Source: Arthrobacter sp. QXT-31
Lineage (GTDB): Bacteria; Actinomycetota; Actinomycetes; Actinomycetales; Micrococcaceae
Direction: 5' to 3'
DNA length: 64,000 nt
Assembly (NCBI RefSeq): GCF_001969265.1
Contig: NZ_CP019304.1
Location: 2,976,001-3,040,000, forward strand
Below, one piece after another: positions 5,471 through 50,422 of the stretch. Position numbers and translations under genes: made by a program. The notes beneath the pieces are model-generated. The model saw only the letters and a list, made by a program, of their open reading frames with translations. It searched no databases and was not told where the DNA came from. The first letter of the stretch is position 1, and each line of letters starts with the position of its first letter.

Positions 5471-6460
5471 TTACTTTCCCTGGAGGGTCTGGTCGGCGTT
5501 GCGGGCGGCGAAGGTGGAGCCGCGCACGATGAGCTGCGAGTTGAGGTGGACCGCCTCGGTGGCGGTGGGCTTGCCGGCGATCTGCTCGAGGAGGAGTTCG
5601 AGGGCGAGGGAGCCGCTTCGGCTGATGGGGACGCGGACGGAGGTGAGGCCGGGTTCGGCGGCCGCGGCGATATCGAGGTCGTCGATGCCCACCACACTGA
5701 TGTCCTCGGGGCAGTGGTAGCCGAGAGTCCGGGCACCGGCGAGCATGCCGATCGCCACGAGGTCGTTGTAGGCGATGACGGCCGTGGCACCGCTGGCGAC
5801 CACCGAGGCGGCGGCGGCCAGGCCGCCGTCGACCGTGGCGTTCTGGTTGCCCACGGTGACCAGTTCGATGCCCCATTCGTCGCAGAGGCGCGTGATGGCT
5901 GCAAGGCGCTGGCCGTTGGCCCACGAGGAGGCCGGGCCGGGGATGTAGGCAAGCTTGCGGTGGCCGAGGGCGTGCAGGTGTTCGACGGCCTGCCGGATCC
6001 CTTCGCCGGCCTCCATCAGTACCCGGGCGGCCTGGTCCGCCTCGCCGTTGATGACCACGAGGGGCGCGCTGCCGGCGAGGTTGTGGATCTGCTCCGACGG
6101 GAGCCGCGGAGAGCAGAGGATGATGCCGTCCACACCGGTGGCAAACGCTGCAAGGTGGTCGCGCTCGCGGGCTGAGGATTCGCCGGTGTCCGCCAGGACC
6201 ATGCGGTGGCGTCCGTGCCAGGCCTGGTCCTGGATCGCCTTGATGAGTGCGGCGAACACGGCGTTGGAGATGTCCGGGACGACGACGCCGAAGGTTCGGC
6301 TGCCGTTGAGGCCTGGGACGTCATACCCGAGCTGGGCGGCGGCGTCCATGACCTTCTGCCGTGTTTCGGCGGCGAGCCGGCCGGGGTCGCCGAACGCCCG
6401 TGACGCTGTGGCGAGCGAGACGCCAGCGAGCTTTGCGACGTCCGTAAGTTTTGCCGCCAT
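5471..6460 (-). CDS. LacI-family transcriptional regulator
   Basis: 329 residues. The N-terminal LacI helix-turn-helix with hinge (KLTDVAKLAGVSLATASRAF) spans residues 4-23, followed by a periplasmic-binding-protein-like effector domain. It is the first gene of the sugar-acid operon and is separated from the next gene by 2 nt, so it is probably an autoregulated local repressor relieved by a pathway metabolite. A large nested inverted repeat at 6501-6538, some 40-80 nt upstream of the start, is the likely operator. The effector is unknown; a hexonate or 2-keto-3-deoxygluconate would fit. Confidence 0.9.
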   Translation of the reverse strand: MAAKLTDVAKLAGVSLATASRAFGDPGRLAAETRQKVMDAAAQLGYDVPGLNGSRTFGVVVPDISNAVFAALIKAIQDQAWHGRHRMVLADTGESSARERDHLAAFATGVDGIILCSPRLPSEQIHNLAGSAPLVVINGEADQAARVLMEAGEGIRQAVEHLHALGHRKLAYIPGPASSWANGQRLAAITRLCDEWGIELVTVGNQNATVDGGLAAAASVVASGATAVIAYNDLVAIGMLAGARTLGYHCPEDISVVGIDDLDIAAAAEPGLTSVRVPISRSGSLALELLLEQIAGKPTATEAVHLNSQLIVRGSTFAARNADQTLQGK

Positions 6461-6500
6461 CGGTCCTCCAGTTGCTTCGTTGAAACCCTTCTCCTCAAGT

Positions 6501-6538
6501 ATGGAAAAACTTGTACAAGCTTGTCAAGCATTTTCCAT
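6501..6538. promoter_or_regulatory. Nested inverted repeat, probable LacI-family operator
   Basis: ATGGAAAA (6501-6508) and TTTTCCAT (6531-6538) are perfect outer arms. They are centred on the inner palindrome ACAAGCTTGT (6515-6524). A second palindrome, CTTGTACAAG, lies at 6510-6519. The centre of symmetry of the outer arms and of ACAAGCTTGT is identical (6519.5). It lies directly upstream of the LacI gene and its operon. Confidence 0.65.
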
Positions 6539-6580
6539 GAGTTGCATCACAGGGTCGGCGGGGGACGGCGTTAACGCAAG

Positions 6581-6612
6581 AGGACGACGGCGGGAGGTCC
6601 CGCCGTCGTCCT
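6581..6612. terminator. GACGACGGCGGGA-family hairpin terminator
   Basis: Perfect 15-bp arms (AGGACGACGGCGGGA) flank a 2-nt centre. The hairpin lies between the stop of the FAD dehydrogenase gene and the LacI promoter on the minus strand, and would end transcription of the LysR-linked operon. It is a member of a hairpin family repeated elsewhere in the window (for example at 23346, 35451 and 39851). Confidence 0.75.
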
Positions 6613-6623
6613 TCCTTTGTTTG

Positions 6624-6644
6624 GAGTTCTTGTACAGATAATGG
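6624..6644 (+). repeat. Half-copy of the GTACAGATAATGG palindromic repeat
   Basis: Twenty of 21 bases match the left part of the palindrome at 33096 (GAGTT, then C instead of T, then TTGTACAGATAATGG). The matching right arm is absent, so this is an orphan half-element. It ends 4 nt from the stop codon of the minus-strand FAD dehydrogenase gene. Confidence 0.5.
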
Positions 6645-6647
6645 CCG

Positions 6648-8312
6648 CTAAAGCGCCTCGAAGTCGCGATAGGTGGACAAAATCTCCGCCAGGTGCTCGC
6701 CGGCCGTGAAGGCGCGGGTGACGGCGGAGCCGAGGGTCGCCCCGCCTCCCGGGTAGTTGTTGCGGAAGACGCCGGCGGAGACGTTGCCGGCAGCGTAGAG
6801 TCCGGGGATCGGCTGCCGGTGCCGGTCGAGGACCCGGCCGGAGAAGTCGGTGTCCAGGCCGCCGGAGGTTCCCAGCACGCCGGCGGAAATCCGGACGGCG
6901 TAAAACGGGGCGGAAGCGAGCGGGGCCAGGCACGGGTTGGGGGTGTTGGCGGCGTCGCCCAGGAACCGGTCCTGCGGGGTTGCGCCGCGGTGGAACTCCG
7001 TGTCCACTCCATTCGAGGCGTCCGCGTTGAACCGGGCCACCGTGGCCGCCAGCCCGGCGGGGTCGATCCCGACCTTTTCGGCCAGCTCCTCCAGCGAACC
7101 CCCGGCTGTGATCCAACCCGCCGGGGCTCCGGCGGCGGATCCCGCCACCGGATACTTCGCCAGGTACGCCGCATCGAAGACGAGCCATGCCGGGTTGTTC
7201 TGCTGGCGGCCGGTCAGCGGGTCGACGGAGGCGAACACCCGGCACGCATCGTGGTAGTTCAGCGCCTCGTTCACAAACCGCGTCCCGGCAGCATTCACAG
7301 TGATCGAGCCAGGCAGTGTCATTTCCACGTTCCCCATCCGGCCGGAGCGCACGCCGTCATATTCGTGAGATGCCTCGGAAATCACCGGCACTCCCCAGAT
7401 TGCGGTCATGTCCGCCACGGCGGCGCCCGCCTTCAGACCCAGTTCCAGGCCGTCGCCCTGGTTGGACGGCGCGCTGATGGGCGTCACGGGAAACGGCAGG
7501 AATGCCTGGCGGAGCCGCGGATTCCACTCGAAACCGCCGGACGCGAGGACGACGGCGGCCGCGGACACCGTTCTGCCCGATGCAGCACCGCCGAGGGTCA
7601 CGACCCATCTGTCCCCATCGCGGGCCAGATCTTCGAACGGCGCAGAGACCGCGATCTCCACGCCGCGGTCCAGGGCGCTCACCACCAGCGAACCCACCAG
7701 CGCGCCGCCCATGGTCCGCACGCCCGTTGCGGCGCGCCGTGCCAACAGCTCCGGATCCGCCGCCCGGCCGTTGAGCCGGTCGCGTTCAGTCATGGTCAGC
7801 AGCGGAAAATACGACGACGGCCGGATCGCCTCCGCGAGGCCCGGGTACCCCGACATGTCGAAGGCGCCGTTGTCCAAGCTGCGTCCGCCGTCGGCCGCGC
7901 CTTGCCATTCCATGTGGTAGTCCGGGCGGGCGATCGGCGTCAGCGAAACCCTGGTTTCGGCGTCGAGATAGGCGACGGCGCGCGGCGCCGTGCTGACGTA
8001 CCACTCCACCTCCTCGTGGCTCAGCACGTGCCCCGCAGCTTCGGCGAGATACGCAACGCCGTCCTCATGGCTGTCCCCGTAGCCGGCCCGGCGGCCCAGA
8101 TGGTTGTTGGGAGCCCACATCACGCCGCCTCCGGCCGCGGTGGTTCCGCCGAGGAGCTCCGCCTTCTCGGCCACGAGCACCCCCAGCCCGGCGTCGGCCG
8201 CCCGGATGGCCGCCACCAGGCCGGCCGCGCCGCTCCCTGCGACCACCACATCGTAGGTGTCCGAGACATTCCCGGCGGGGGTGAGCAACGGGGTATTCGC
8301 CGCCCGGCTCAT
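6648..8312 (-). CDS. FAD-binding dehydrogenase, fumarate reductase/3-ketosteroid delta-1-dehydrogenase superfamily
   Basis: 554 residues. The FAD dinucleotide motif GSGAAG is at 26-31. A TTAAGGGVMWAP segment and the C-terminal FAD segment GLYAAGNVSAGVFRNNYPGGGATLG match flavoproteins that introduce or reduce a C=C bond next to a carbonyl or carboxylate. There is no signal peptide, so it is cytoplasmic. It overlaps the upstream zinc dehydrogenase gene by ATGA, and the YciI-like gene precedes that one. A second member of the same superfamily is encoded at 20613. The substrate is unknown; the family and context suggest a keto or cyclic acid. Confidence 0.85.
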   Translation of the reverse strand: MSRAANTPLLTPAGNVSDTYDVVVAGSGAAGLVAAIRAADAGLGVLVAEKAELLGGTTAAGGGVMWAPNNHLGRRAGYGDSHEDGVAYLAEAAGHVLSHEEVEWYVSTAPRAVAYLDAETRVSLTPIARPDYHMEWQGAADGGRSLDNGAFDMSGYPGLAEAIRPSSYFPLLTMTERDRLNGRAADPELLARRAATGVRTMGGALVGSLVVSALDRGVEIAVSAPFEDLARDGDRWVVTLGGAASGRTVSAAAVVLASGGFEWNPRLRQAFLPFPVTPISAPSNQGDGLELGLKAGAAVADMTAIWGVPVISEASHEYDGVRSGRMGNVEMTLPGSITVNAAGTRFVNEALNYHDACRVFASVDPLTGRQQNNPAWLVFDAAYLAKYPVAGSAAGAPAGWITAGGSLEELAEKVGIDPAGLAATVARFNADASNGVDTEFHRGATPQDRFLGDAANTPNPCLAPLASAPFYAVRISAGVLGTSGGLDTDFSGRVLDRHRQPIPGLYAAGNVSAGVFRNNYPGGGATLGSAVTRAFTAGEHLAEILSTYRDFEAL

Positions 8313-9394
8313 GCCTTGGCTCCCGTGAAGGCGGGGGTGTCCGTTTCGCAGGCAGCGGACGAGGCGGGCATGTCCACCACGATCTTGCCTACCGGCTCGG
8401 TGCGGCTGCGCATCAGTTCGAAAGCCTGCTGCAGGCTGTCGAAACCAAAGCGGTGCGTCACCAGCGCGCGGGCCTGGTCCCGGTGCCGGGCCAGCAGTTC
8501 CAATCCCGCCGGAATGAGGTTCAGGCTGTTTCGGCTGCCCAACAGGTCGATCTCCTTGAAAGGGATGGCGTTCACGGGAATGGACGCCATCCTCGCCGAG
8601 ATTCCGACCTGGACGACCCGTCCGGCACTCGCCACCAGGCGCACGGCGTTCTCCAGCGAAGACGGAACACCCGTGGCCTCGATGACCAGCTCCGGCCCGG
8701 CTAAATCCGTCAGCGCGTCCAGCCGGGCGGCCTGGGCCGCGCCCGGGAACTCCGTGCGGGGATCCACCTGGAACGTGTCCACGGCACCGAATTTGGCGGC
8801 CAGCTCCAGCCGGTCCGGCTCGGTATCGGCGCAAACCACCCGAACACCGAGGTCCGTCAGGTACAGCGCCGCGAGCAGCCCGATTGGACCGCTGCCCAGC
8901 ACCAGCGCCGTTTCCCCGGCCGACGGCCGGCCCCGGTTCACGGCCTGCATCGCAATCGACGCGGGCTCGGCCAAGGCCGCGAGATCCAGGTCCACGCCGT
9001 CAGGGACCAGGCACAGCTTCTCCACCGGTACGCTAACCAGCTCCACCAGTGCTCCGTCCGAGTAGCAGCCAATGCAGCCGATGTTCTCGCAGACGTTGAA
9101 CCGGCCCATGCGGCACGGGCGGCACTGTCCGCAGTAGACCATCGGGCTGACGGCGACCCGGTCACCGGTGCGGATGCCGGCGCCGTTGGTTCCGATGGCC
9201 TCGACGATGCCGGCGAACTCATGGCCTTGGATGACGGGCAGCCCGGCGGGATAGTCGTCCTCCCAGATGTGCAGGTCGGTGCCGCACAGGGTGACGTTGT
9301 GGACGCGGACCAGGGCGTGGCCGGGTGCCAGGACCGGCTCCGGAACGTCCTCGTACCGGATGGTTTCCTTGGCGACCGTGCGGGCAATCAGCAT
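8309..9394 (-). CDS. Zinc-dependent alcohol dehydrogenase
   Basis: 361-residue medium-chain dehydrogenase. Catalytic zinc ligands are C37 (LCGTDLH) and H58-E59 (QGHEF). Structural zinc Cys are at 88, 91, 94 and 102, and GSGPIG is at 167-172. It resembles threonine/sorbitol/2,3-butanediol-type dehydrogenases. It probably oxidises a secondary alcohol to the ketone used by the FAD enzyme encoded just downstream, with which it overlaps by ATGA. AGGAG lies about 7 nt before the ATG and overlaps the stop codon of the YciI-like gene, 9 nt upstream, implying one transcript. Confidence 0.85.
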   Translation of the reverse strand: MLIARTVAKETIRYEDVPEPVLAPGHALVRVHNVTLCGTDLHIWEDDYPAGLPVIQGHEFAGIVEAIGTNGAGIRTGDRVAVSPMVYCGQCRPCRMGRFNVCENIGCIGCYSDGALVELVSVPVEKLCLVPDGVDLDLAALAEPASIAMQAVNRGRPSAGETALVLGSGPIGLLAALYLTDLGVRVVCADTEPDRLELAAKFGAVDTFQVDPRTEFPGAAQAARLDALTDLAGPELVIEATGVPSSLENAVRLVASAGRVVQVGISARMASIPVNAIPFKEIDLLGSRNSLNLIPAGLELLARHRDQARALVTHRFGFDSLQQAFELMRSRTEPVGKIVVDMPASSAACETDTPAFTGAKA

Positions 9395-36945: not shown

Positions 36946-37413
36946 ATGTCCCTGGTCAAAGGACTAGTCAACGGAGCGCTCGCCGGCGCCGCGGGAACCA
37001 CCGCGCTGAATGCCGCCAGCTACCTGGATATGGTGTGGCGGGGCCGCGCCGCGAGCACGACCCCCACCGACTCGGTGGAGCGGCTGGCCGAACGGACGGG
37101 GGTCACCATCCCGGGAACCGAGGCCCAGCGCGGGAACCGGGTGGAGGCCCTTGGACCGCTGCTCGGGATCGCCACCGGCATGGGCCTGGGTGCCGTGCTG
37201 GGAGCTGCAGGGTCGCTGGGCTTGCGCACCGGACCCGTCGCATCGGTGGGCGTGGCGTCCCTTGCAGCCCTTCTCGTCTCCAACGTTCCCATGACCGCGC
37301 TGGGCATCACCGATCCGCGGACCTGGAGCGCCGCGGACTGGGTCAGCGACATCGTGCCGCACCTCGCGTACGGTGCGGTGACGGGGCACCTGCTCGAGCA
37401 CCTGCCCAGGTAA
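36946..37413 (+). CDS. Hypothetical small membrane protein
   Basis: 155 residues with about three or four hydrophobic segments (GALAGAAGTTALNAASYL, GPLLGIATGMGLGAVLGAAG, SVGVASLAALLVSN, and a weak C-terminal one). No known domain. AGGAG is well placed before the ATG. It ends directly before the GTG of the LssY-like gene, so the two form an operon of membrane proteins. Function unknown. Confidence 0.8.
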   Translation: MSLVKGLVNGALAGAAGTTALNAASYLDMVWRGRAASTTPTDSVERLAERTGVTIPGTEAQRGNRVEALGPLLGIATGMGLGAVLGAAGSLGLRTGPVASVGVASLAALLVSNVPMTALGITDPRTWSAADWVSDIVPHLAYGAVTGHLLEHLPR

Positions 37414-38322
37414 GTGGCTATCCCCAAAGATACCCAGGCGCCCCAGGAGCCCAAGCATGCCCGGCCCGTCAGCCGGAAGGCACGCTGGGGCAGCCGCTGG
37501 GCCACCGTCGTCGCCGTGCTCCAGCGGCTGCTCTACGTGGCCACCACCGCCGCCGTGGGCTGGGCCGTCTATTTCTTTTTGCTCGCCCGGCTGGCAAAGG
37601 GGCCGGAACAGGTATGGGTGTTCCTTCCCGTATGGCTGATTGCGGCCTACGCCTTCCTGCCCCGCGTCCACAAGATCCTCAGCAGCCTCTACCTGCCGAA
37701 CTACTTCATCGGGCGAGCCCGCACCGGCGACGGCGTGCTGGGTGATCCGGTCAATCTCGCGGTCATTGGCCCGGCGGAGGAGCTGCGCACCGCGATGCTC
37801 ACGGCAGGATGGACCGAGGCCGACCCCGTGACCCCGGCCACCGCTTGGCGCACCCTGACCTCGACGCTCCTGGGCCGGAGCTATCCGCAGTCGCCGGTCA
37901 GTAACCTGTACGTCTTCGGCAACAAGCACGACATGGCGTTCCAGCGCGAAATCGACGGCAACCCGCGGAAGCGGCACCACGTGCGGTTCTGGAAATGCCC
38001 GGACGGGTGGATGCTCCCCGGCGGTTTCGCCGTCGACTGGGTGGGCGCCGGAACGTACGACAAGAGCGTGGGCCTCTCGCTCTTCACCTTCCAGATCACG
38101 CACAAGATCGCCGACGGCACCGACGAGGAGCGTGACTTCATCATCGGCACGCTGCAAACGGCTCACGCCGTGGAATCCGTGCACGTGATCCGCCACTTCT
38201 CCTCCGGCTACCACCACCGCAACGGCGGCGGAGACAGCATCCGCACCGACGGGCACCTTCCCATCATCGACCTCCGCCCGCGCGGCCAGCACGATCCGGC
38301 ACTGCCGCCGGAAACAGGATAG
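37414..38322 (+). CDS. LssY C-terminal domain membrane protein
   Basis: 302 residues. A basic N-terminal tail is followed by two TM segments at about 35-60 and 68-85, then a soluble domain typical of LssY C-terminal proteins (DPVNLAVIGPAEELRTAMLTAGW, KRHHVRFWKCPDG, HVIRHFSSGYHHRNGGGD). LssY was named from a Legionella secretion-associated locus, but its function is not defined. The GTG start is adjacent to the stop codon of the upstream gene. The thioredoxin gene starts 10 nt after its stop. Confidence 0.8.
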   Translation: MAIPKDTQAPQEPKHARPVSRKARWGSRWATVVAVLQRLLYVATTAAVGWAVYFFLLARLAKGPEQVWVFLPVWLIAAYAFLPRVHKILSSLYLPNYFIGRARTGDGVLGDPVNLAVIGPAEELRTAMLTAGWTEADPVTPATAWRTLTSTLLGRSYPQSPVSNLYVFGNKHDMAFQREIDGNPRKRHHVRFWKCPDGWMLPGGFAVDWVGAGTYDKSVGLSLFTFQITHKIADGTDEERDFIIGTLQTAHAVESVHVIRHFSSGYHHRNGGGDSIRTDGHLPIIDLRPRGQHDPALPPETG

Positions 38323-38332
38323 GAAGGACAAC

Positions 38333-38758
38333 ATGGACAAGGCGATCATCAAATGCCCGCACTGCGGCCAGGCCAACCGTGTGCCGGCTGCGGCTGAGGG
38401 CCGGCCGCGGTGCGGAAAATGCCGCCGCGACCTGCCTTGGGTGGTGGAGGCGGGCGACGACGACTTCGCAGTCATTGCCGAACAGTCCCGCGTCCCGGTG
38501 CTGGTGGACTTCTGGGCGGTCTGGTGCGGGCCCTGCCGCATGGTGAGCCCGGTGTTGGACCAGCTGGCCCACGAGCGGGCAGGCGAGGTCAAGCTCGTGA
38601 AGGTGGATGTGGACAAGGCTCCCCGGCTTTCCGCCCGCTTCGCCATCCAGGCCGTCCCGACGCTGCTGGTGATCGTGGATGGAAAGGTCGTGGCCCGCCA
38701 GGCAGGCGCGGCGCCGGCCCCCGTTCTGGACCGCTGGCTGAAGGAGGCGCTCACGTGA
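38333..38758 (+). CDS. trxC: Zinc-finger thioredoxin (thioredoxin-2/TrxC type)
   Basis: 141 residues. An N-terminal zinc site CPHC (8-11) and CGKC (27-30) precedes a thioredoxin fold with active site WCGPC at 64-68 and the cis-Pro in AVPTLLV. This is the layout of E. coli TrxC, a cytoplasmic oxidative-stress disulfide reductase. GGAAGGA precedes the ATG. It overlaps the ASCH gene by 4 nt (GTGA), so they are co-translated. Confidence 0.88.
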   Translation: MDKAIIKCPHCGQANRVPAAAEGRPRCGKCRRDLPWVVEAGDDDFAVIAEQSRVPVLVDFWAVWCGPCRMVSPVLDQLAHERAGEVKLVKVDVDKAPRLSARFAIQAVPTLLVIVDGKVVARQAGAAPAPVLDRWLKEALT

Positions 38759-39264
38759 GTGAGGACATTCTTCCAGCCGTGGATACTGCCGCAGCCGGGC
38801 TCTTCTGGTCTGACTATGCGGCAGCCTGCCCCGAAGCTGTCCGCATCTGTCCGGACTACACGGTCGAACGCTTTGGGGATTCCGCGGACCTGGCCGATGA
38901 GCTGCTTCGGGCAGTGACGGAAGGAACCAAACGGGCCACTTCCGAGCTTGCCGACGAGTTTCTTGCGGCCGGGGCCGGCCTGCCCCGCATCGGGTCGCAC
39001 TGGATAGCCTGCGATGGGGCCGGTATCCCGCACGTCATCCTGCGCACCGTCGAGCTGCGTCTCGGCCCGTTCGCCAGCGCAGACGAGGCGTTCGCCCGGG
39101 ACGAGGGCGAGGACGACCGCTCGCTCGCAAGCTGGCAGGCCGGGCACCGGAAGTACTGGACCCGGATCCGGGCCCGCCGCGGGATGGAATGGACCGAAGC
39201 CGACGAGATTGTTTTTGAGCGGTTCCGGGTGGTGTGGCCGCCCGCACTGGCGGACCCGGCCTAG
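38755..39264 (+). CDS. ASCH domain protein
   Basis: 169 residues of the RNA-binding-like ASCH/PUA fold. Family traits are the EGTKRATSEL strand-helix (about 60-70), GSHWIACDGAGIPHVILRT and the C-terminal RFRVVWPP. ASCH proteins bind RNA or hydrolyse acetylated cytidine in some bacteria (YqfB). The bulky FARDEGEDDRSLASWQAGHRKYW segment is typical of the larger ASCH subgroup. The GTG start has GGAGG 8 nt upstream and overlaps the thioredoxin stop. Confidence 0.82.
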   Translation: MSEDILPAVDTAAAGLFWSDYAAACPEAVRICPDYTVERFGDSADLADELLRAVTEGTKRATSELADEFLAAGAGLPRIGSHWIACDGAGIPHVILRTVELRLGPFASADEAFARDEGEDDRSLASWQAGHRKYWTRIRARRGMEWTEADEIVFERFRVVWPPALADPA

Positions 39265-39546
39265 GGTCTGCCAGCCGGGACAGCCGGCCCGCGGCGAGTG
39301 CCCAAGTAGCGGGCGGCGTCCAAATTCGAGTACCTGATACGGGTGCCACTGCCCGCGGCAGCCCATAGGGTGGAAGTATCGGGTGGTGGAAAGTGTGCCG
39401 GCACCGTCAGATGCAGGCACACACGGGGCTGGGGACGGCCGCCACGGTTGTTGCCGGACCGGCCGGTCCTCCCCGGCTGATTCGGCACGTCATTGGTTGA
39501 GTATCCGCTCCGGCCTTAAGTTGCCGCCTCACCTGCGAGGGCCCCC

Positions 39547-41524: not shown

Positions 41525-41881
41525 TCAGGGGGACCAGAGCCAGTCCCGGTTGAAGTCCGGATGGTCACTGTAGGGGACCGCCAGCGCGTTGAGGGACAGT
41601 GTGGTCCATTCCAGCGCCTGCGGAATCCACTCGGTCCCGTCCCCGAAGGGATCACGCACGAGCGTGGCAAGGGCGGTCTGCCTGGCAGACTCCACGATGC
41701 CGATCAGCCGCCGTTTGGCTTCGCATTCCAGCAGCAGGCGCCGTTCGTACCACTTGCCTGATTCCGACGTCGTGCGGTCCTCGAGCAGCTTGCGCGCCAC
41801 GGCCTCGTCCTCGGCGATGCGCGCGGACAGGAACTCCACAATGTCCACTGTCTGAGCGTACGCCCGCCGCAACGCCTGCAC
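41525..41881 (-). CDS. DUF6221 family protein
   Basis: 118 residues with the DUF6221 opening VDIVEFLSARIAEDEAVARKLLED and the central helix CEAKRRLIGIVESARQ. These proteins are common in actinobacterial genomes, often in prophages or beside small hypotheticals, and have no known function. The C-terminal part is specific (DPFGDGTEWIPQALEW). The GTG start has GGAG about 10 nt upstream. It is convergent with the HNH gene and lies just downstream of the chimeric ABC gene on the same strand. Confidence 0.7.
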   Translation of the reverse strand: MQALRRAYAQTVDIVEFLSARIAEDEAVARKLLEDRTTSESGKWYERRLLLECEAKRRLIGIVESARQTALATLVRDPFGDGTEWIPQALEWTTLSLNALAVPYSDHPDFNRDWLWSP

Positions 41882-41905: not shown

Positions 41906-43750
41906 CTACACGGCAGCGGGGAGGTCCAGCGCGCCGCGGAGCTCCGCTGCCCGGCTCAGCTCTACGGCGGTGCTGAGGTCCGCCGGGGACAGCGGCAGGT
42001 AGTAGGCGGAGCGGTAGCGGGTCCGGTCGCCGGTCACCACCCAGGCAGACCCCTTTCGCACGCGGAACCGCTTGGTCAGGACCGTCCGGTCGCGGTGTAC
42101 GAGGTGGGCCAGGACATCTGCCATGACGTCCTCGTGGGTGCACAGGACAGTCCCCGTTCCGCGGGCCTTGGCCACAAGGTTCAGAGTGCCCGCCAGGCTG
42201 CCGCCCGCCAGGTGCTCTGAACGCTCCACTTCGAGGGATTCCCGCCGCGCGAGTTCGGCGACGGTTTCGATGCAGCGGGGTGAGGGTGCGGCGAGGATGC
42301 GTTCGATGTCGAACATGGCTCCCAGTGAGGCGAGTGACCTGGCGGCCTGCTCACCGGCCGGTGCCAGCGGCCGGGCGCCCGCCTCCGGGTCCCAGGCGTC
42401 CCGTTTCGTCATTTCGGCCCCGCGCACCAGCAGCAGCATTTTTTCCCGCCGCGGGGCAGGCCGGACGCCCAGTTCAAGCTGGAGCCTGGCGCCCAGGGCA
42501 AGAATCGCGGGCCTGTCCCGCGGTTCTGTCACCGTGCGCAAGGCTGCCGGCAGCGAAAGCCACCTGATCAGGCTGACGACGGACGACTTGCCGGCACCCG
42601 TCGGGCCGGTGATCGCCACGACGCTGCCCGGCTCCGCCTTCAGGTCAATCCCGTGCAGCACATGCCGGTCGCCCTGGTAGCCGAAGCTCACCCGCCGCAG
42701 TTCCACCGCACCGGCCAGCCGCGGCGCCGGCCTCGCGCCGGGCCGGTCCGAGATGGCCGGCGCGGTGTCCAGGATCTCCTGGATGCGTTCTGCGCTGGCC
42801 TGGCCGCGGCTGATGACGGTGGTGAGCTTGGCCAGGGACTTCATGGGGGAGTACAGGGCCTTGAGGTAGGCGAGGAAGACCAGCAGCAGGCCCAGCGTCA
42901 GGGTTCCGTCCAGCACGCGCTGCGCGCCGATCCAGATGACCAGCACCGTGCCCAGGGTTGCGATGATGTCCACCAGCGGCGAGAACATGGACTGCAGCCG
43001 GATGACCCTCAGGCCGGCGTCGCGGCGTCCGTCATTCCGGGTGCGGAAGTCCTCCTCGTGGTGCGCCTCGCTCGTGTACGTCTGCATCACGCGCACCGAG
43101 GCGAACGTCTCCGACATCGCCGCCGCGATGTCGCTGTCCCTGCTGCGGGCCTCCTTCGACGCGCCCTTGATGCGCCGCCGGTAAAACAGCACCGTCATGA
43201 ACAGCAGCGGAGACACCGCAAAGGTGGGGTCGATCAGCATGCAGATGGTGATGACGAATCCCAGGATGAAGATGTTGGGCAGCAGCACCGACAGGATCGA
43301 CACCATGAGGGCTCGCACGTAATCGACGTCGGTGGTGGTCCGGGTGACCAGGTCGCCCAGCCGCTGCTTGTCGTGGAAGGCCAGTGACAGCCGCTGGAGA
43401 TGGGTGAAGACTTCGGCCCGGATCGTGGCCATGGCCCGCTCACCCACGCCGTTGAGGAGCCGGGTGCCGAGGTAATCCGCTCCGGCGTTAAGTACTGTCA
43501 TGGCGAGCAGCGCGGACGCGGCGAGCAGAAGCAGCTGGAGCTGGCTCAGGCCGGCCAGGCCGAGGAAGGCGGGCATCTCGTGGAGCTGGGAGCTGCCCGA
43601 GGGCTGCAGCACGTCGTCGACTATGACCTTCATGGGCCACGGCACCGCCACCTCCATGGCGGCGACGAACACCACCAGCAGCGCGCCGATCCCCAGCGCC
43701 CAGGCATGCGGGACTATCGCCCCGCGGAACCGCCAAAAGGTTTGAAACAT
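41906..43750 (-). CDS. Chimera: ABC exporter truncated after Walker A, fused to a histidine-phosphatase-like domain
   Basis: 614 residues. Residues 1-330 form a six-helix type IV ABC exporter membrane domain. The start of the nucleotide-binding domain follows (VELRRVSFGYQGDRHVLHGI, Walker A GPTGAGKSS with Lys near 388). The sequence then leaves the ABC family at about 395-400, with no Q-loop, signature LSGGQ, Walker B or H-loop. From 438 a SixA/phosphoglycerate-mutase-like domain begins, similar to the C-terminal half of mycobacterial MutT1 (RPLAPAGEQAARSLA, APSPRCIETVAELA, LCTHEDVM). Its catalytic RHG is RGA: His is replaced by Gly. An in-frame deletion fusing two genes is the simplest origin. 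The nucleotide-binding domain cannot hydrolyse ATP, so it may be a pseudogene. Confidence 0.8.
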   Translation of the reverse strand: MFQTFWRFRGAIVPHAWALGIGALLVVFVAAMEVAVPWPMKVIVDDVLQPSGSSQLHEMPAFLGLAGLSQLQLLLLAASALLAMTVLNAGADYLGTRLLNGVGERAMATIRAEVFTHLQRLSLAFHDKQRLGDLVTRTTTDVDYVRALMVSILSVLLPNIFILGFVITICMLIDPTFAVSPLLFMTVLFYRRRIKGASKEARSRDSDIAAAMSETFASVRVMQTYTSEAHHEEDFRTRNDGRRDAGLRVIRLQSMFSPLVDIIATLGTVLVIWIGAQRVLDGTLTLGLLLVFLAYLKALYSPMKSLAKLTTVISRGQASAERIQEILDTAPAISDRPGARPAPRLAGAVELRRVSFGYQGDRHVLHGIDLKAEPGSVVAITGPTGAGKSSVVSLIRWLSLPAALRTVTEPRDRPAILALGARLQLELGVRPAPRREKMLLLVRGAEMTKRDAWDPEAGARPLAPAGEQAARSLASLGAMFDIERILAAPSPRCIETVAELARRESLEVERSEHLAGGSLAGTLNLVAKARGTGTVLCTHEDVMADVLAHLVHRDRTVLTKRFRVRKGSAWVVTGDRTRYRSAYYLPLSPADLSTAVELSRAAELRGALDLPAAV

Positions 43751-46171: not shown

Positions 46172-47695
46172 CTAGAGGGGGAGGGGGACGAGGCCGCCGA
46201 GGGTGCGGTACTTCTCGAGCCGCAGCGGAAGGAGCTCCGCCACGCCGGCGGCCGAGAGCGCGGCCAGCTCATACTCGATGGCCTGGCCCAGGCGCTGGCA
46301 GAACGCCCTGCCCTCGACGGCGGCGTCACCGCGTTCGTCCACGATGTGCTCCACCATGCCGTGGGCGTACAGCGACGCCACGTTGACTCCCTGCGCCTCG
46401 GACATGGCCGGGGCGAACTCCGTGCTGCGGTGCACGATGGCGCTCGCGCCTTCGGGCGGCAGCGGGGACAGCCAGGCATGCTGTGCTGCGATGGTGCGGT
46501 CGGCCGGGAACAGCGCCAGCGCACCGCCTCCGGTCCCCTGGCCCATGAGCACGGACACCGTGGGGGAGTTCAAACCGATGAGGTCGTGCAGCGACCTCGC
46601 GATTTCACCGGCGAGCCCGCCTTCCTCCGCCTCTTTGGAGAGCGCCGCGCCGCCGGTGTCGATCACCGTCACCAGCGGCAGGCCGAGTTCCTCGGCCAGC
46701 CGCATGCCACGCCGGGCCTCGCGCAATGACGCCGGGCCCATGGCCGTCTGCTGGGAGGGGCGGGGCCGGGTGTGCCCGATCACCACGCAGGACTTCTGCC
46801 CGAACCGGGCAAGTGCCAGCAGCAGCCCCGGGTCCTTTTCACCTTGGCCGGTGCCGTTGAGCGGCAGCACATCCCGGGCCCCGTAGGCCAGCAGCTGCCG
46901 CAGGTCCGGACGCCGGGGGTTCCGGGAGATTCCGATCGATTCCCAGGCGCCGGCGTCGGACGGTTTGACGGACAGCGTCCGCGGCGGACGGACACGTGCG
47001 TGCGGCCCGGCGACCAGGATGCTCAAGGCGCGGTCGACGACGTCGGACAGCTGCCACGGCGGGACAACCGCGTCCACCAGCCCCTTGTCGAAGAGGTTCT
47101 CGGCCACCTGGACGTTCTCAGGGAACGGTGCACCGTACAGCGCCTCGTAGACGCGCGGCCCCAGGAAGCCGAGGAGGGCACCGGGCTCGGCCACGGTGAT
47201 GTGTCCAAGCGAGCCCCAGGAAGCCATGACACCGCCGGTAGTCGGGTGGCGCAAATACACGAGGTAGGGCAGGCCCGCTTGCCGGTGCGCCCGCACCGCC
47301 GCGCTGATTTTCACCATGGAGAGGAAGGCGATGGTGCCTTCCTGCATCCGGGTGCCGCCCGACGCCGGCCCGGCGAGCAGCGGCAGGCCTTCCCGGGTGG
47401 CCCGTTCCACGGCGTTCACGATCCGTTCCCCTGCGGCGAGGCCGATGGACCCGGCGAGGAAACGGAATTCGCTGACAATGACGGCCACGCGCCGCCCGCG
47501 GATGAGCCCTTCGCCGGTGAGGACGGACTCGTCCACGCCGGTCTTTTCCCGGGCCGCTGCCAGTTCCTGCCGGTATTCCGGGCTGGGGTCGGGGTCCGCC
47601 ACGGGCGAGTCCCAGCTGCGGTAGGAGCCGGGGTCGAGCACGGCGGCGATGAGTTCGGTGGCGTCCAAGTGCCGGACCTTCTGGGTTTCAGGCAT
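46172..47695 (-). CDS. Fused acyl-CoA carboxyltransferase (AccD-AccA type)
   Basis: 507 residues. The first half is an AccD-like crotonase-fold domain (SGGTRMQEGTIAFLSMVKISAA, PTTGGVMASWGSLGH). The second half is AccA-like (PLVTVIDTGGAALSKEAEEGGLAGEIARSL, GQGTGGGALALFPAD). The Cys4 zinc ribbon of E. coli AccD is missing. It transfers CO2 between carboxybiotin and an acyl-CoA. It is encoded with a CoA-transferase and a MatC-like carrier, which suggests it decarboxylates or transcarboxylates malonyl-CoA rather than serving fatty-acid synthesis. No biotin carboxylase or BCCP is adjacent; the one at 23920 is over 20 kb away. Confidence 0.85.
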   Translation of the reverse strand: MPETQKVRHLDATELIAAVLDPGSYRSWDSPVADPDPSPEYRQELAAAREKTGVDESVLTGEGLIRGRRVAVIVSEFRFLAGSIGLAAGERIVNAVERATREGLPLLAGPASGGTRMQEGTIAFLSMVKISAAVRAHRQAGLPYLVYLRHPTTGGVMASWGSLGHITVAEPGALLGFLGPRVYEALYGAPFPENVQVAENLFDKGLVDAVVPPWQLSDVVDRALSILVAGPHARVRPPRTLSVKPSDAGAWESIGISRNPRRPDLRQLLAYGARDVLPLNGTGQGEKDPGLLLALARFGQKSCVVIGHTRPRPSQQTAMGPASLREARRGMRLAEELGLPLVTVIDTGGAALSKEAEEGGLAGEIARSLHDLIGLNSPTVSVLMGQGTGGGALALFPADRTIAAQHAWLSPLPPEGASAIVHRSTEFAPAMSEAQGVNVASLYAHGMVEHIVDERGDAAVEGRAFCQRLGQAIEYELAALSAAGVAELLPLRLEKYRTLGGLVPLPL

Positions 47696-47697
47696 GG

Positions 47698-48969
47698 TCA
47701 GCGGCCTTCCCCTGCAGAGCCGGCGGCGGCATTGGCCGGGACAAGCCCGAGCCACTGCCTGATCTGCTCGCCGTCCTGGTCCAGCAGCGGCGGAGCAGTA
47801 TGTGCCTTGAGCGTGGTCTCGGCGGTGTCCGCGGCGCTGAAGAAGCGCAGCGGCGGCCCCGGCAGGGTGACGTTCCCGAGGATCTTGTGGTCGACGTCGA
47901 TCACCAGCCCCTGCGAATGGACCTGTTCCCATGCGTAAACCTCGTCCAGGGTGCGGACCTTGCCCGCCGGGACGCCCGCCTCGTTCAGTTTGGCGAGCAG
48001 CGGCTCAGCCTCGTAGTCGGCGAAGACGCGCTCCACCTCCTCGATGACCTTTTCCCGGTTGCGGACGCGCTCAGCGTTGGTGGCGAACTCCGGGCGGTCC
48101 GCAGCAATGCCGAACGCGGCAGCAAACGTCCGCCACAGTTTCTCGCTGCCCACGCTGATCTGTACCCGTCCCTGCCGGCAGTGGAACAGCCCGTACGGCG
48201 CGATGGACGGGTGGTGGTTGCCCTGGGCTTTCGGCACCTCGCGCGCGACGGTGGCGCGGGTTCCCTGGAAAGCATGCACACCGATCAGCGCTGCGAGCAG
48301 CGAGGTCCGCACAATCTGGCCCTGTCCCGTCCGTTCGCGCTGCAGCAGCGCAGCCAGCGTGCCGAACGCCCCGTACATGCCCGAGAGCAGGTCCGCGATG
48401 GGCACCCCCACCCGCTGTGGATCGTCGGGGCCGGAACCGGTCAGGGACATCAGCCCGGCCTCGCCCTGCAGGATCTGGTCGTAGCCGCTGCGGCGCGATT
48501 CCGGGCCGTCGTGGCCGAAGCCGGTGATGGACAGGACCACCAGCGACGGGTTCAGCGCATGCATCTGCGCGGCCGAGAATCCCAGCCGGGCCAGCACGCC
48601 GGGCCGGAAGTTTTCAATCACGACGTCGGCCCGTTCCAGCAGTTCGCGCAGAACCGTCCGCCCGTCGTCGCTCTTCAGGTCCAGGGCGATGGATTCCTTG
48701 TTGCGGTTGCAGGAGAGGAAGTATGTCGCCTGGGGATCGTCCTCGGGGCCAACGAAGGGCGGCCCCCAGCCGCGGGTATCGTCGCCGGTGCCGGGGTTCT
48801 CAACCTTGATGACCCGTGCGCCGAGGTCCGCGAGCATCATGCCGGCATGCGGTCCGGCCAGGGCGCGGCTCAGGTCCACCACGAGGTAACCGGCGAGGGG
48901 GCCTTGGGGCTGGGACGTACCTTGGGGCTGGGGCAGGCTTTCCGACTGGGAGGTGGATTCATGGTTCAT
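47698..48969 (-). CDS. Class III CoA-transferase (CaiB/BaiF family)
   Basis: 423 residues. Family marks are VVDLSRALAGPHAGMMLADLGARVIKVE near residue 30, SCNRNKESIALDLK and the catalytic Asp region GYDQILQGEAGLM. These enzymes move CoA between carboxylic acids through an aspartyl-CoA. Between a MatC-type carrier and a carboxyltransferase it would activate an imported dicarboxylate (malonate is the leading guess). A Ser/Gln-rich 25-residue N-terminal tail precedes the domain. AAGGA lies before the ATG. It is 2 nt upstream of the carboxyltransferase. Confidence 0.88.
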   Translation of the reverse strand: MNHESTSQSESLPQPQGTSQPQGPLAGYLVVDLSRALAGPHAGMMLADLGARVIKVENPGTGDDTRGWGPPFVGPEDDPQATYFLSCNRNKESIALDLKSDDGRTVLRELLERADVVIENFRPGVLARLGFSAAQMHALNPSLVVLSITGFGHDGPESRRSGYDQILQGEAGLMSLTGSGPDDPQRVGVPIADLLSGMYGAFGTLAALLQRERTGQGQIVRTSLLAALIGVHAFQGTRATVAREVPKAQGNHHPSIAPYGLFHCRQGRVQISVGSEKLWRTFAAAFGIAADRPEFATNAERVRNREKVIEEVERVFADYEAEPLLAKLNEAGVPAGKVRTLDEVYAWEQVHSQGLVIDVDHKILGNVTLPGPPLRFFSAADTAETTLKAHTAPPLLDQDGEQIRQWLGLVPANAAAGSAGEGR

Positions 48970-49021
48970 GCTGGGTGTTCCTTCTCTTGCTTGCGGGGCT
49001 GCTGGTGCTCTTCCGGCCGGC

Positions 49022-50422
49022 TTACATCCAGCCGGGGAGGACCATGACCAGCCAGGCGATGGCGGGGCCGGCGATGACGACGACGCCGCTGTAGGCCAGG
49101 ATCTGCTTGTAGAACTTGTCCTTGTCCACGTCCTCCGGAGCGTTGGCGAGGACCAGGGCGCCGTTGGTGGAGAACGGCGAGACGTCCACGATCGTGGCGG
49201 CGACGGCCAGGGCGGCGATGACGCCGACGGCACCGATTTCGCCGGTGGACAGGAACGGGACGGCCAGCGGGATGAGGGCGGCCAGGATGGCGGTGGAGGA
49301 GGCGAAGGCCGAGACCACGGCGCCGATGTAGCAGATCAGCAAGGCCGCCAGCAGCGGCATCCCGAGCTGGGCGACGCCGTCGGACACGAACTTGATGGTG
49401 CCGGCTTCCTCGAGGACGCCCACGAAGGTGAGCATGCCGCAGATGAGCAGGACGGTGGACCAGCTGATCTTGTTGACCGCGCCCTTCTGGGCGGCGGGGG
49501 AGACGAGGGCCAGGACCATGGCGATGGTGATGGAGACGAACCCAACGTCCACCTTGAAGCCGAGCGAGATGACGGCGAGGGCGATCAGTCCGGCGATGGT
49601 GACCAGCTGCGGAACGGTGGCGCGTGCACCGCCGGCCTCCGCCCCGTCCGTGGTGGCAGGTGAGGCCGGGGAGCAGCCGGACGTTCCCTTGCGGGCGACG
49701 CCGGAGGGGGAGATGTCGGAACCGGAGCCCTGCAGGGTGACGCCGGCGGCGCGGGCTCCGACGCTGACGGCCATTCTGGACTCGGCAGCCTGCTCCACGA
49801 GCCGGCCGGTCTTGGTGGAGAGCAGTTTGCTGCCGCCCAGCACGATGAAGAGCACCACGGCGATGGCGAGGTTGAAGACAAAACTGGCGAGGAAGATCAT
49901 CATGGGGCTGGCTTCGAGGTCCGTTTTGCCGATGATGCCGTTGACCGTGACGCCGTAGACGGCAATCGGGGAGAAGCCGCCGGCCTGAGCCCCGTGGATC
50001 ACCATCATGCCCATCATCAGCGGGTTGATCTTGTGCTTCGCGGCAAAGCTCAGGGCGATCGGCGCGATGATTGCGACGGCGGCCGGAGACAGGGCGCCGA
50101 CGGCGGTGATGACCGCCGTGATGGCGAACATGACCCAGGGGATGAGCGCTACCTTGCTGCCCACCATCCGGACTGCGCCGCGCACCAGCAGGTCGATGGT
50201 TCCGTTGTTCTGGGCAATCGCGAAGAGATACGTGACACCGACGATGGTCAGGAACAGACCGCCGGGAAAGTTGGCGAGGATGTCGCTGGTGGACATCCCC
50301 AGGACCACCGAGCCGAGCAGGAAGGCACCCACGAAAGCCAGGGCGCCCATGTTGAGAGGCAGCACCGTGGCCAGCAGGAACATCACCGCCAGGATGATGA
50401 TGGACAGGACAGGAGCGGACAT
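49022..50422 (-). CDS. SLC13/MatC-type dicarboxylate carrier
   Basis: 466 residues and about 11-12 predicted TM segments. The first 150 residues (LPLNMGALAFVGAFLLGSVVLGMS, NFPGGLFLTIVGVTYLF, GALSPAAVAIIAPIALSFA) match the MatC N-terminal domain of malonate carriers. A long hydrophilic Ser/Gly/Ala-rich cytoplasmic loop at about 215-265 divides the protein into two halves. The likely substrate is malonate or a similar dicarboxylate, judged by family and the adjacent CoA-transferase. GGAGG precedes the ATG. It is divergent from a GntR gene across a CCTAG-ACA-CTAGG site. Confidence 0.85.
   Translation of the reverse strand: MSAPVLSIIILAVMFLLATVLPLNMGALAFVGAFLLGSVVLGMSTSDILANFPGGLFLTIVGVTYLFAIAQNNGTIDLLVRGAVRMVGSKVALIPWVMFAITAVITAVGALSPAAVAIIAPIALSFAAKHKINPLMMGMMVIHGAQAGGFSPIAVYGVTVNGIIGKTDLEASPMMIFLASFVFNLAIAVVLFIVLGGSKLLSTKTGRLVEQAAESRMAVSVGARAAGVTLQGSGSDISPSGVARKGTSGCSPASPATTDGAEAGGARATVPQLVTIAGLIALAVISLGFKVDVGFVSITIAMVLALVSPAAQKGAVNKISWSTVLLICGMLTFVGVLEEAGTIKFVSDGVAQLGMPLLAALLICYIGAVVSAFASSTAILAALIPLAVPFLSTGEIGAVGVIAALAVAATIVDVSPFSTNGALVLANAPEDVDKDKFYKQILAYSGVVVIAGPAIAWLVMVLPGWM

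Follow-up and report, generated by a model that had tools for sequence, protein, structure and literature searches.

The window, the whole stretch of 64,000 nucleotides of Arthrobacter sp. QXT-31 analysed here, carries on its minus strand one long open frame, in which the front part of an ABC exporter is joined to the rear part of a MutT1-like protein. The features of this locus are as follows:

41906..43750, minus strand: chimeric open frame, 614 codons plus stop
42567..43750, minus strand: 5′ part, ABC exporter membrane domain and start of the nucleotide-binding domain (NBD), to Ile395
43219..43220 (about), minus strand: private 15-base in-frame deletion, between Phe177 and Ala178
42566..42567, minus strand: junction of the 956-base deletion relative to relatives
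42440..42565, minus strand: remainder of the Nudix domain (about 20 last residues, RWLSLPAALRTVTEPRDR...) and linker, residues 396–437
41909..42439, minus strand: MutT1-type histidine-phosphatase-like C-terminal domain and C-terminal tail, residues 438–614
42419..42421, minus strand: Gly444 codon (GGG)
41525..41881, minus strand: DUF6221, the next gene downstream of the chimera

As the original prediction had stated, the frame runs uninterrupted; all 614 codons were read without a break. The exporter part matched PF00664, the six-helix ABC_membrane domain, at residues 20–303 (E 7.7e-40) and, under the equivalog cut-off, the MsbA model TIGR02203 at residues 5–396. The ABC_tran model (PF00005) matched residues 365–398 only, which are positions 1–34 of the 137 in the profile. 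Walker A reads GPTGAGKSS; its lysine, expected near 388, is Lys388. Exit from the ABC family had been placed within about ten residues, and Ile395, seven residues past Lys388, is indeed the last ABC-like one. The NBD after Walker A is gone: the chimera contains neither the LSGGQ signature nor Walker B, and LSGGQ and ILDEPT are both present in 17/17 related loci, read in three frames. The Q-loop and H-loop presumably belonged to the lost part, according to the NBD order that we assume; the names of the ABC motifs are likewise our own assignment.

The segment that follows (residues 396–437) had been described as of no obvious family; it is in fact the Nudix end and linker of the MutT1-like protein. 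The Nudix box (GX5EX7REUXEEXGU) is deleted in the window and is kept in all 17 related loci. A domain like the MutT1 C-terminus had been recognized further on, in agreement with one match to Pfam His_Phos_1 (PF00300, residues 461–514, 25.5 bits, above the cut-off of 21.7) and one partial match to the NCBIfam model of mycobacterial MutT1 (residues 392–585, 48.3 bits, far below the cut-off of 475). The motifs of this domain are VRGA 442–445 (Arg443-Gly444-Ala445), PSPRC 489–493 (Arg492) and CTHE 537–540 (His539). The profile match, Arg492 and His539 are features of the histidine phosphatase superfamily branch 1 fold; at the position of the catalytic His, Gly444 is found instead. RHG thus reads RGA through one GGG codon, with the second Arg and the second His kept, exactly as claimed. 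Judged by alignment, the chimera is no chance open frame, because both halves align with conserved proteins over hundreds of residues.

In related genomes, the locus consists of two whole genes. A scan of one-per-species genomes yielded seven related loci, six from Arthrobacter and one from Pseudarthrobacter; in Arthrobacter relatives, an ABC exporter (606–630 aa) is followed by a Nudix plus histidine-phosphatase-like protein. This is the arrangement, an intact ABC gene and then a separate phosphatase-like gene at the same locus, that the original prediction had proposed to look for. In the L006 locus, the exporter gene is located at 5971–7827 and the gene of the 305-aa protein at 7824–8741, overlapping by 4 bases; the 305-aa protein contains one Nudix domain (17–125) and one His_Phos_1 domain (148–223), and a frame like that of DUF6221 lies downstream of the pair (8792–9115).

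A search of 206 genomes of the genus gave matches in 36 at E ≤ 1e-60. The exporter is at least 67% identical in 18 of the 36 (the window's genome included), whereas the other 18 contain different exporters of 33–36% identity. From 16 of the 17 other gene-bearing genomes we read 17 loci, G020 having two copies: 13 are unbroken two-gene loci, one is an unbroken fusion (G077) and three carry single-base frameshifts. The overlap between the genes is exactly 4 bases in all 13 unbroken two-gene loci. G001 stands outside this count because its two genes sit on the ends of two contigs (L089 and L090); it does not have the deletion, as its exporter extends beyond the deletion point (1–575) and the Nudix gene is present (4–305). 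In the three frameshifted loci, L049 (first copy of G020), L051 (G022) and L065 (G074), the exporter or the Nudix gene contains one or two frameshifts of a single base, each next to a short run of G or of C; the second copy of G020 (L052) is intact. These frameshifts may be sequencing errors and were therefore not counted as decay of the gene family.

Across the order, the Nudix-phosphatase protein as query found matches in at least 2 out of 396 genomes (E ≤ 1e-50), with G000 and G027 among the matches listed; the other gene-bearing genomes of the genus are probably absent from this sample, because they should have matched. When the fusion protein was used as the query of one family-wide search, 395/395 genomes matched, mostly through generic exporters. 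Among the matches listed, the nearest one outside the genus is from G260 (48%), and no Nudix gene was found at this exporter in the 5.2 kb read.

In alignments with each of L001, L002, L003, L005 and L006, a single gap of 956 bases appears in the window. The gap opens in the codon that follows Leu394 and closes within the one preceding the Arg of RWLSLP in the Nudix gene; lost with it are the remaining NBD, the stop and start codons of the overlap, and all but about the last 20 residues of the Nudix domain. A read-through near 42560 had been suspected, and the junction is at 42566/42567. The flanks are collinear with the window, with some gaps, in these same five of the seven loci; no flank match was found in L004 and L007, both of which are short contigs. 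Separate intact genes are thus found at the relatives' locus, and the DNA between the joined ends is missing from the window. Of the two origins first proposed for the chimera, the comparison therefore bears out the deletion that joined neighbouring genes in frame. The ancestral genes are in different frames, so the loss of 956 bases would have put both into one frame by chance.

The two ends of the deletion have one base (T) in common, in register, in 4/4 relatives tested. No flanking repeat beyond chance was found at the break in these four: in each of them, words shared between the 150-base surroundings of both ends are at most 9 long, and controls at equal spacing (30 spots each) gave mean shared words of 8.6–9.3 and maxima of 10–13. 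Ordinary repeat collapse therefore does not apply, and repeat-mediated collapse at the junction was rejected. The window's genome contains one Ku gene, so end joining is possible.

It could still be argued that the strain possesses both intact genes and that 956 bases were dropped through an assembly or sequencing error, as the junction is seen in one assembly alone, considering the 206 genus genomes and the database matches listed. We regard such an error as improbable, and as less likely than a strain-specific deletion. Besides the absence of any repeat beyond chance, the genome is one contig and 99.99% complete; some 650 bases from the junction, the window has another deletion of its own, which suggests that the locus has really diverged, although that deletion could also be an error. 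No second copy of the gene was found in the window's genome, where the next best match is 28% identical over residues 19–404.

Recurrence of the chimera in several species had been named as a further check, and the chimera was found in the window's genome alone among the genomes searched. Its junction is absent from the other 17 of the 18 gene-bearing genomes in the 206 searched, and a chimera shared within the genus was rejected on this ground. Database searches covered 5.8 billion proteins. With residues 398–614 as query, no chimera of fusion-sized length is among the matches listed; at least three matches above the cut-off are Nudix-phosphatase-like proteins of 338–389 aa, without the exporter part. 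With residues 1–395, the phosphatase-like motif occurs in none of the 46 proteins listed above the cut-off; among them is one fragment, P0024 (447 aa), which stops within the NBD.

The second private deletion lies in the membrane domain. The window reads DPTFAVSPLLF, and the relatives are five residues longer, e.g. DPTFALIGLAVSPLLF; the five residues are present in 17/17 related loci, and all 46 database proteins listed for residues 1–395 have the complete TM4 stretch. Based on the exporter topology that we assume, we take the missing residues to belong to TM4. The membrane domain of the window is probably not intact, because the removal of five residues from one helix should disturb it. The original prediction of a full exporter membrane domain thus stands as far as the PF00664 match is concerned, but not for its completeness, with 15 bases missing. 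Compared to type IV (ABCB/MsbA-like) exporters such as MsbA and Sav1866, the window lacks the NBD after Walker A and these five helix residues. The intact L006 exporter matches the solved structures of Sav1866 (2hyd, residues 86–600 of 618) and MsbA (3b5w, 92–600); eukaryotic ABCB transporters rank higher than both.

The glycine at the phosphatase motif is a different matter. The first motif is RGA or RGG in 17/17 related loci (RGG in G186) and in all five database proteins with the domain (P0003, P0004, P0005, P0007 and P0008). All these loci and proteins retain the second Arg, and the second His motif is CTHE throughout except in P0003, which has STHE. As Gly is found in all 17 related loci, Gly444 is not private to the window's strain, and the idea that His was replaced by Gly in the course of the fusion was rejected. 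The exporter-linked MutT1-like protein would therefore have been without the catalytic His before the deletion. The window's genome also encodes one separate MutT1-like protein of 323 aa with intact RHA (L018:1357–2328, minus strand; also given at G000:C1:3603722–3604246); its flanking frames are, as we take them, thymidylate-synthase-like and polyphosphate-kinase-like.

Mycobacterial MutT1 (PDB 9cxx, 5gg5) consists of one Nudix domain and one RHG histidine-phosphatase domain. Both domains of 9cxx match the intact neighbour gene of L006 (E 3.5e-30, residues 8–290), which, like MutT1, keeps the Nudix box; different from MutT1, RHA/RHG is replaced by RGA/RGG in all 17 related loci. Compared to MutT1, the window retains only the Nudix end and the C-terminal domain. 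Changing the RHG His of mycobacterial MutT1 is reported to have no effect on NDK dephosphorylation, which requires the Nudix Glu; structural support for the Nudix domain comes from the C-terminal one (PMC11784022). By analogy, a C-terminal domain without the His would be compatible with a useful Nudix protein in the relatives, since the MutT1 His is described as dispensable and the domain as structural. Different from the relatives, the window has lost the Nudix part.

In sister Arthrobacter lineages, the exporter and the MutT1-like protein are joined into one unbroken protein. At least three unbroken ABC exporter-Nudix-pseudophosphatase fusions of 916–918 aa were found: the G077 fusion (P0006; L050:1481–4234, minus strand), P0007 (916 aa, full length, Arthrobacter sp. 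Hor0625) and P0008 (918 aa, full length, from one cluster of 20 sequences). P0007 and P0008 are among at least four matches listed for the G077 query, and both have RGA. Like in the chimera, the three parts of these fusions follow the same order, the end of the exporter being joined to the start of the MutT1-like protein. Different from the chimera, they have preserved the NBD motifs, the complete TM4 and the Nudix box, all of which the window lost by deletion. As unbroken fusions exist in sister lineages, their sequences suggest that the exporter and the MutT1-like protein work together. A literature search that covered few subscription journals found no publication on a Nudix/ABC-transporter fusion; the publications listed for pseudophosphatases concern amoebae. 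Two other proteins were listed with the fusion query: P0009 (512 aa), perhaps a genuine fusion and perhaps a misjoined prediction, has an ABC ATPase domain of a different layout behind its Nudix domain; P0010 (527 aa) contains a Nudix domain and unrelated domains.

Because such fusions occur in sister lineages, the chimera might be imagined to have arisen from a natural full-length fusion through an internal deletion. The fused form, however, is just 67% identical to the window over residues 1–398. Among the nine nearest copies (92–95%), seven are separate genes with the 4-base overlap, and the other two (the first copy of G020, and G022) carry the single-base frameshifts. Descent from one fusion is thus extremely improbable.

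For the selection analysis, 14 sequences were compared, namely the window and those 13 of the 17 loci that are neither fused nor frameshifted, and values were taken for the three nearest neighbours of each. Between the window and its three nearest relatives, pairwise dN/dS is 0.066–0.089 in the exporter part (394 codons) and 0.186–0.207 in the phosphatase-like part (193 codons). Among themselves, the relatives gave 0.059–0.142 and 0.160–0.303, respectively, and the window pairs are inside both ranges. As dN/dS is low, no decay is visible beyond the two deletions, and the large deletion would therefore be recent compared with the divergence of the species. The low values of the window mostly reflect time before the deletion, and they also leave room for a retained product.

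Such a product could be a membrane-anchored pseudophosphatase, which binds phosphorylated ligands or one NDK-like partner at the membrane, without ATP hydrolysis. Consistent with this are the open frame, kept by both deletions, the low dN/dS, the preserved Arg443, Arg492 and His539, and, in mycobacterial MutT1, the structural role of the C-terminal domain and the dispensable His in NDK dephosphorylation (PMC11784022). Nevertheless, the chimera was found in one genome alone, one helix is short of five residues, nothing of the NBD is left beyond the P-loop, and the C-terminal domain has no Nudix domain left to support. Low dN/dS speaks mostly of the time before the deletion, and positive support comes down to the open frame. 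We therefore consider a retained new protein very unlikely. The new kind of membrane protein, offered in the original prediction as the other origin, is not supported: no second chimera was found in the genomes searched or among the proteins listed, and the post-Walker A NBD, the Nudix box and part of one helix are lost.

Taken together, these observations indicated that the chimera is very probably what one recent deletion left behind, namely a fusion pseudogene that lost its function but is still free of stops. The ancestor would have carried a pair of overlapping genes expressed as a single unit, the first encoding one type IV ABC exporter half-transporter and the second one MutT1-like protein with a Nudix domain and a histidine-phosphatase fold lacking the catalytic His. 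One deletion of 956 bases, probably by end joining, would then have eliminated everything in the NBD past Walker A, the stop and start codons of the overlap, and the greater part of the Nudix domain; what remained would have been joined in frame, as is expected by chance in one case out of three. The chimeric protein should be unable to export, because most of the NBD is gone and one membrane helix is shortened; it should not hydrolyse nucleotides either, because the Nudix box and the phosphatase His are absent. What counts against a pseudogene is that the chimera has no stop or frameshift and that both private deletions kept the frame. The chimera is of little importance, save as a warning that one deletion can yield a clean long open frame.

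What lies behind the scar may be of more interest. Tentatively, it could be a coupled system that has not been described before, in which a type IV exporter is coupled by translation, and in sister lineages by covalent fusion, to a MutT1-like Nudix enzyme with a phosphatase domain turned non-catalytic and used for phosphate binding or docking; the two might process a nucleotide-linked substrate during export or flipping. We consider this possible, but rather less likely than its absence. If it is true, nature has knocked out both genes in the strain of the window. The constant 4-base overlaps and the outright fusions make the functional link between the exporter and the Nudix enzyme directly testable.

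Apart from this locus, the window contains one carboxyltransferase frame at 46172–47932 (minus strand), which matched both the Carboxyl_trans and the ACCA models; it is adjoined by one CoA-transferase family III gene at 47698–49233 (minus strand). At 36964–39420 (minus strand), one 818-codon open frame runs antisense to several plausible genes; it is probably a by-product of high G+C content.
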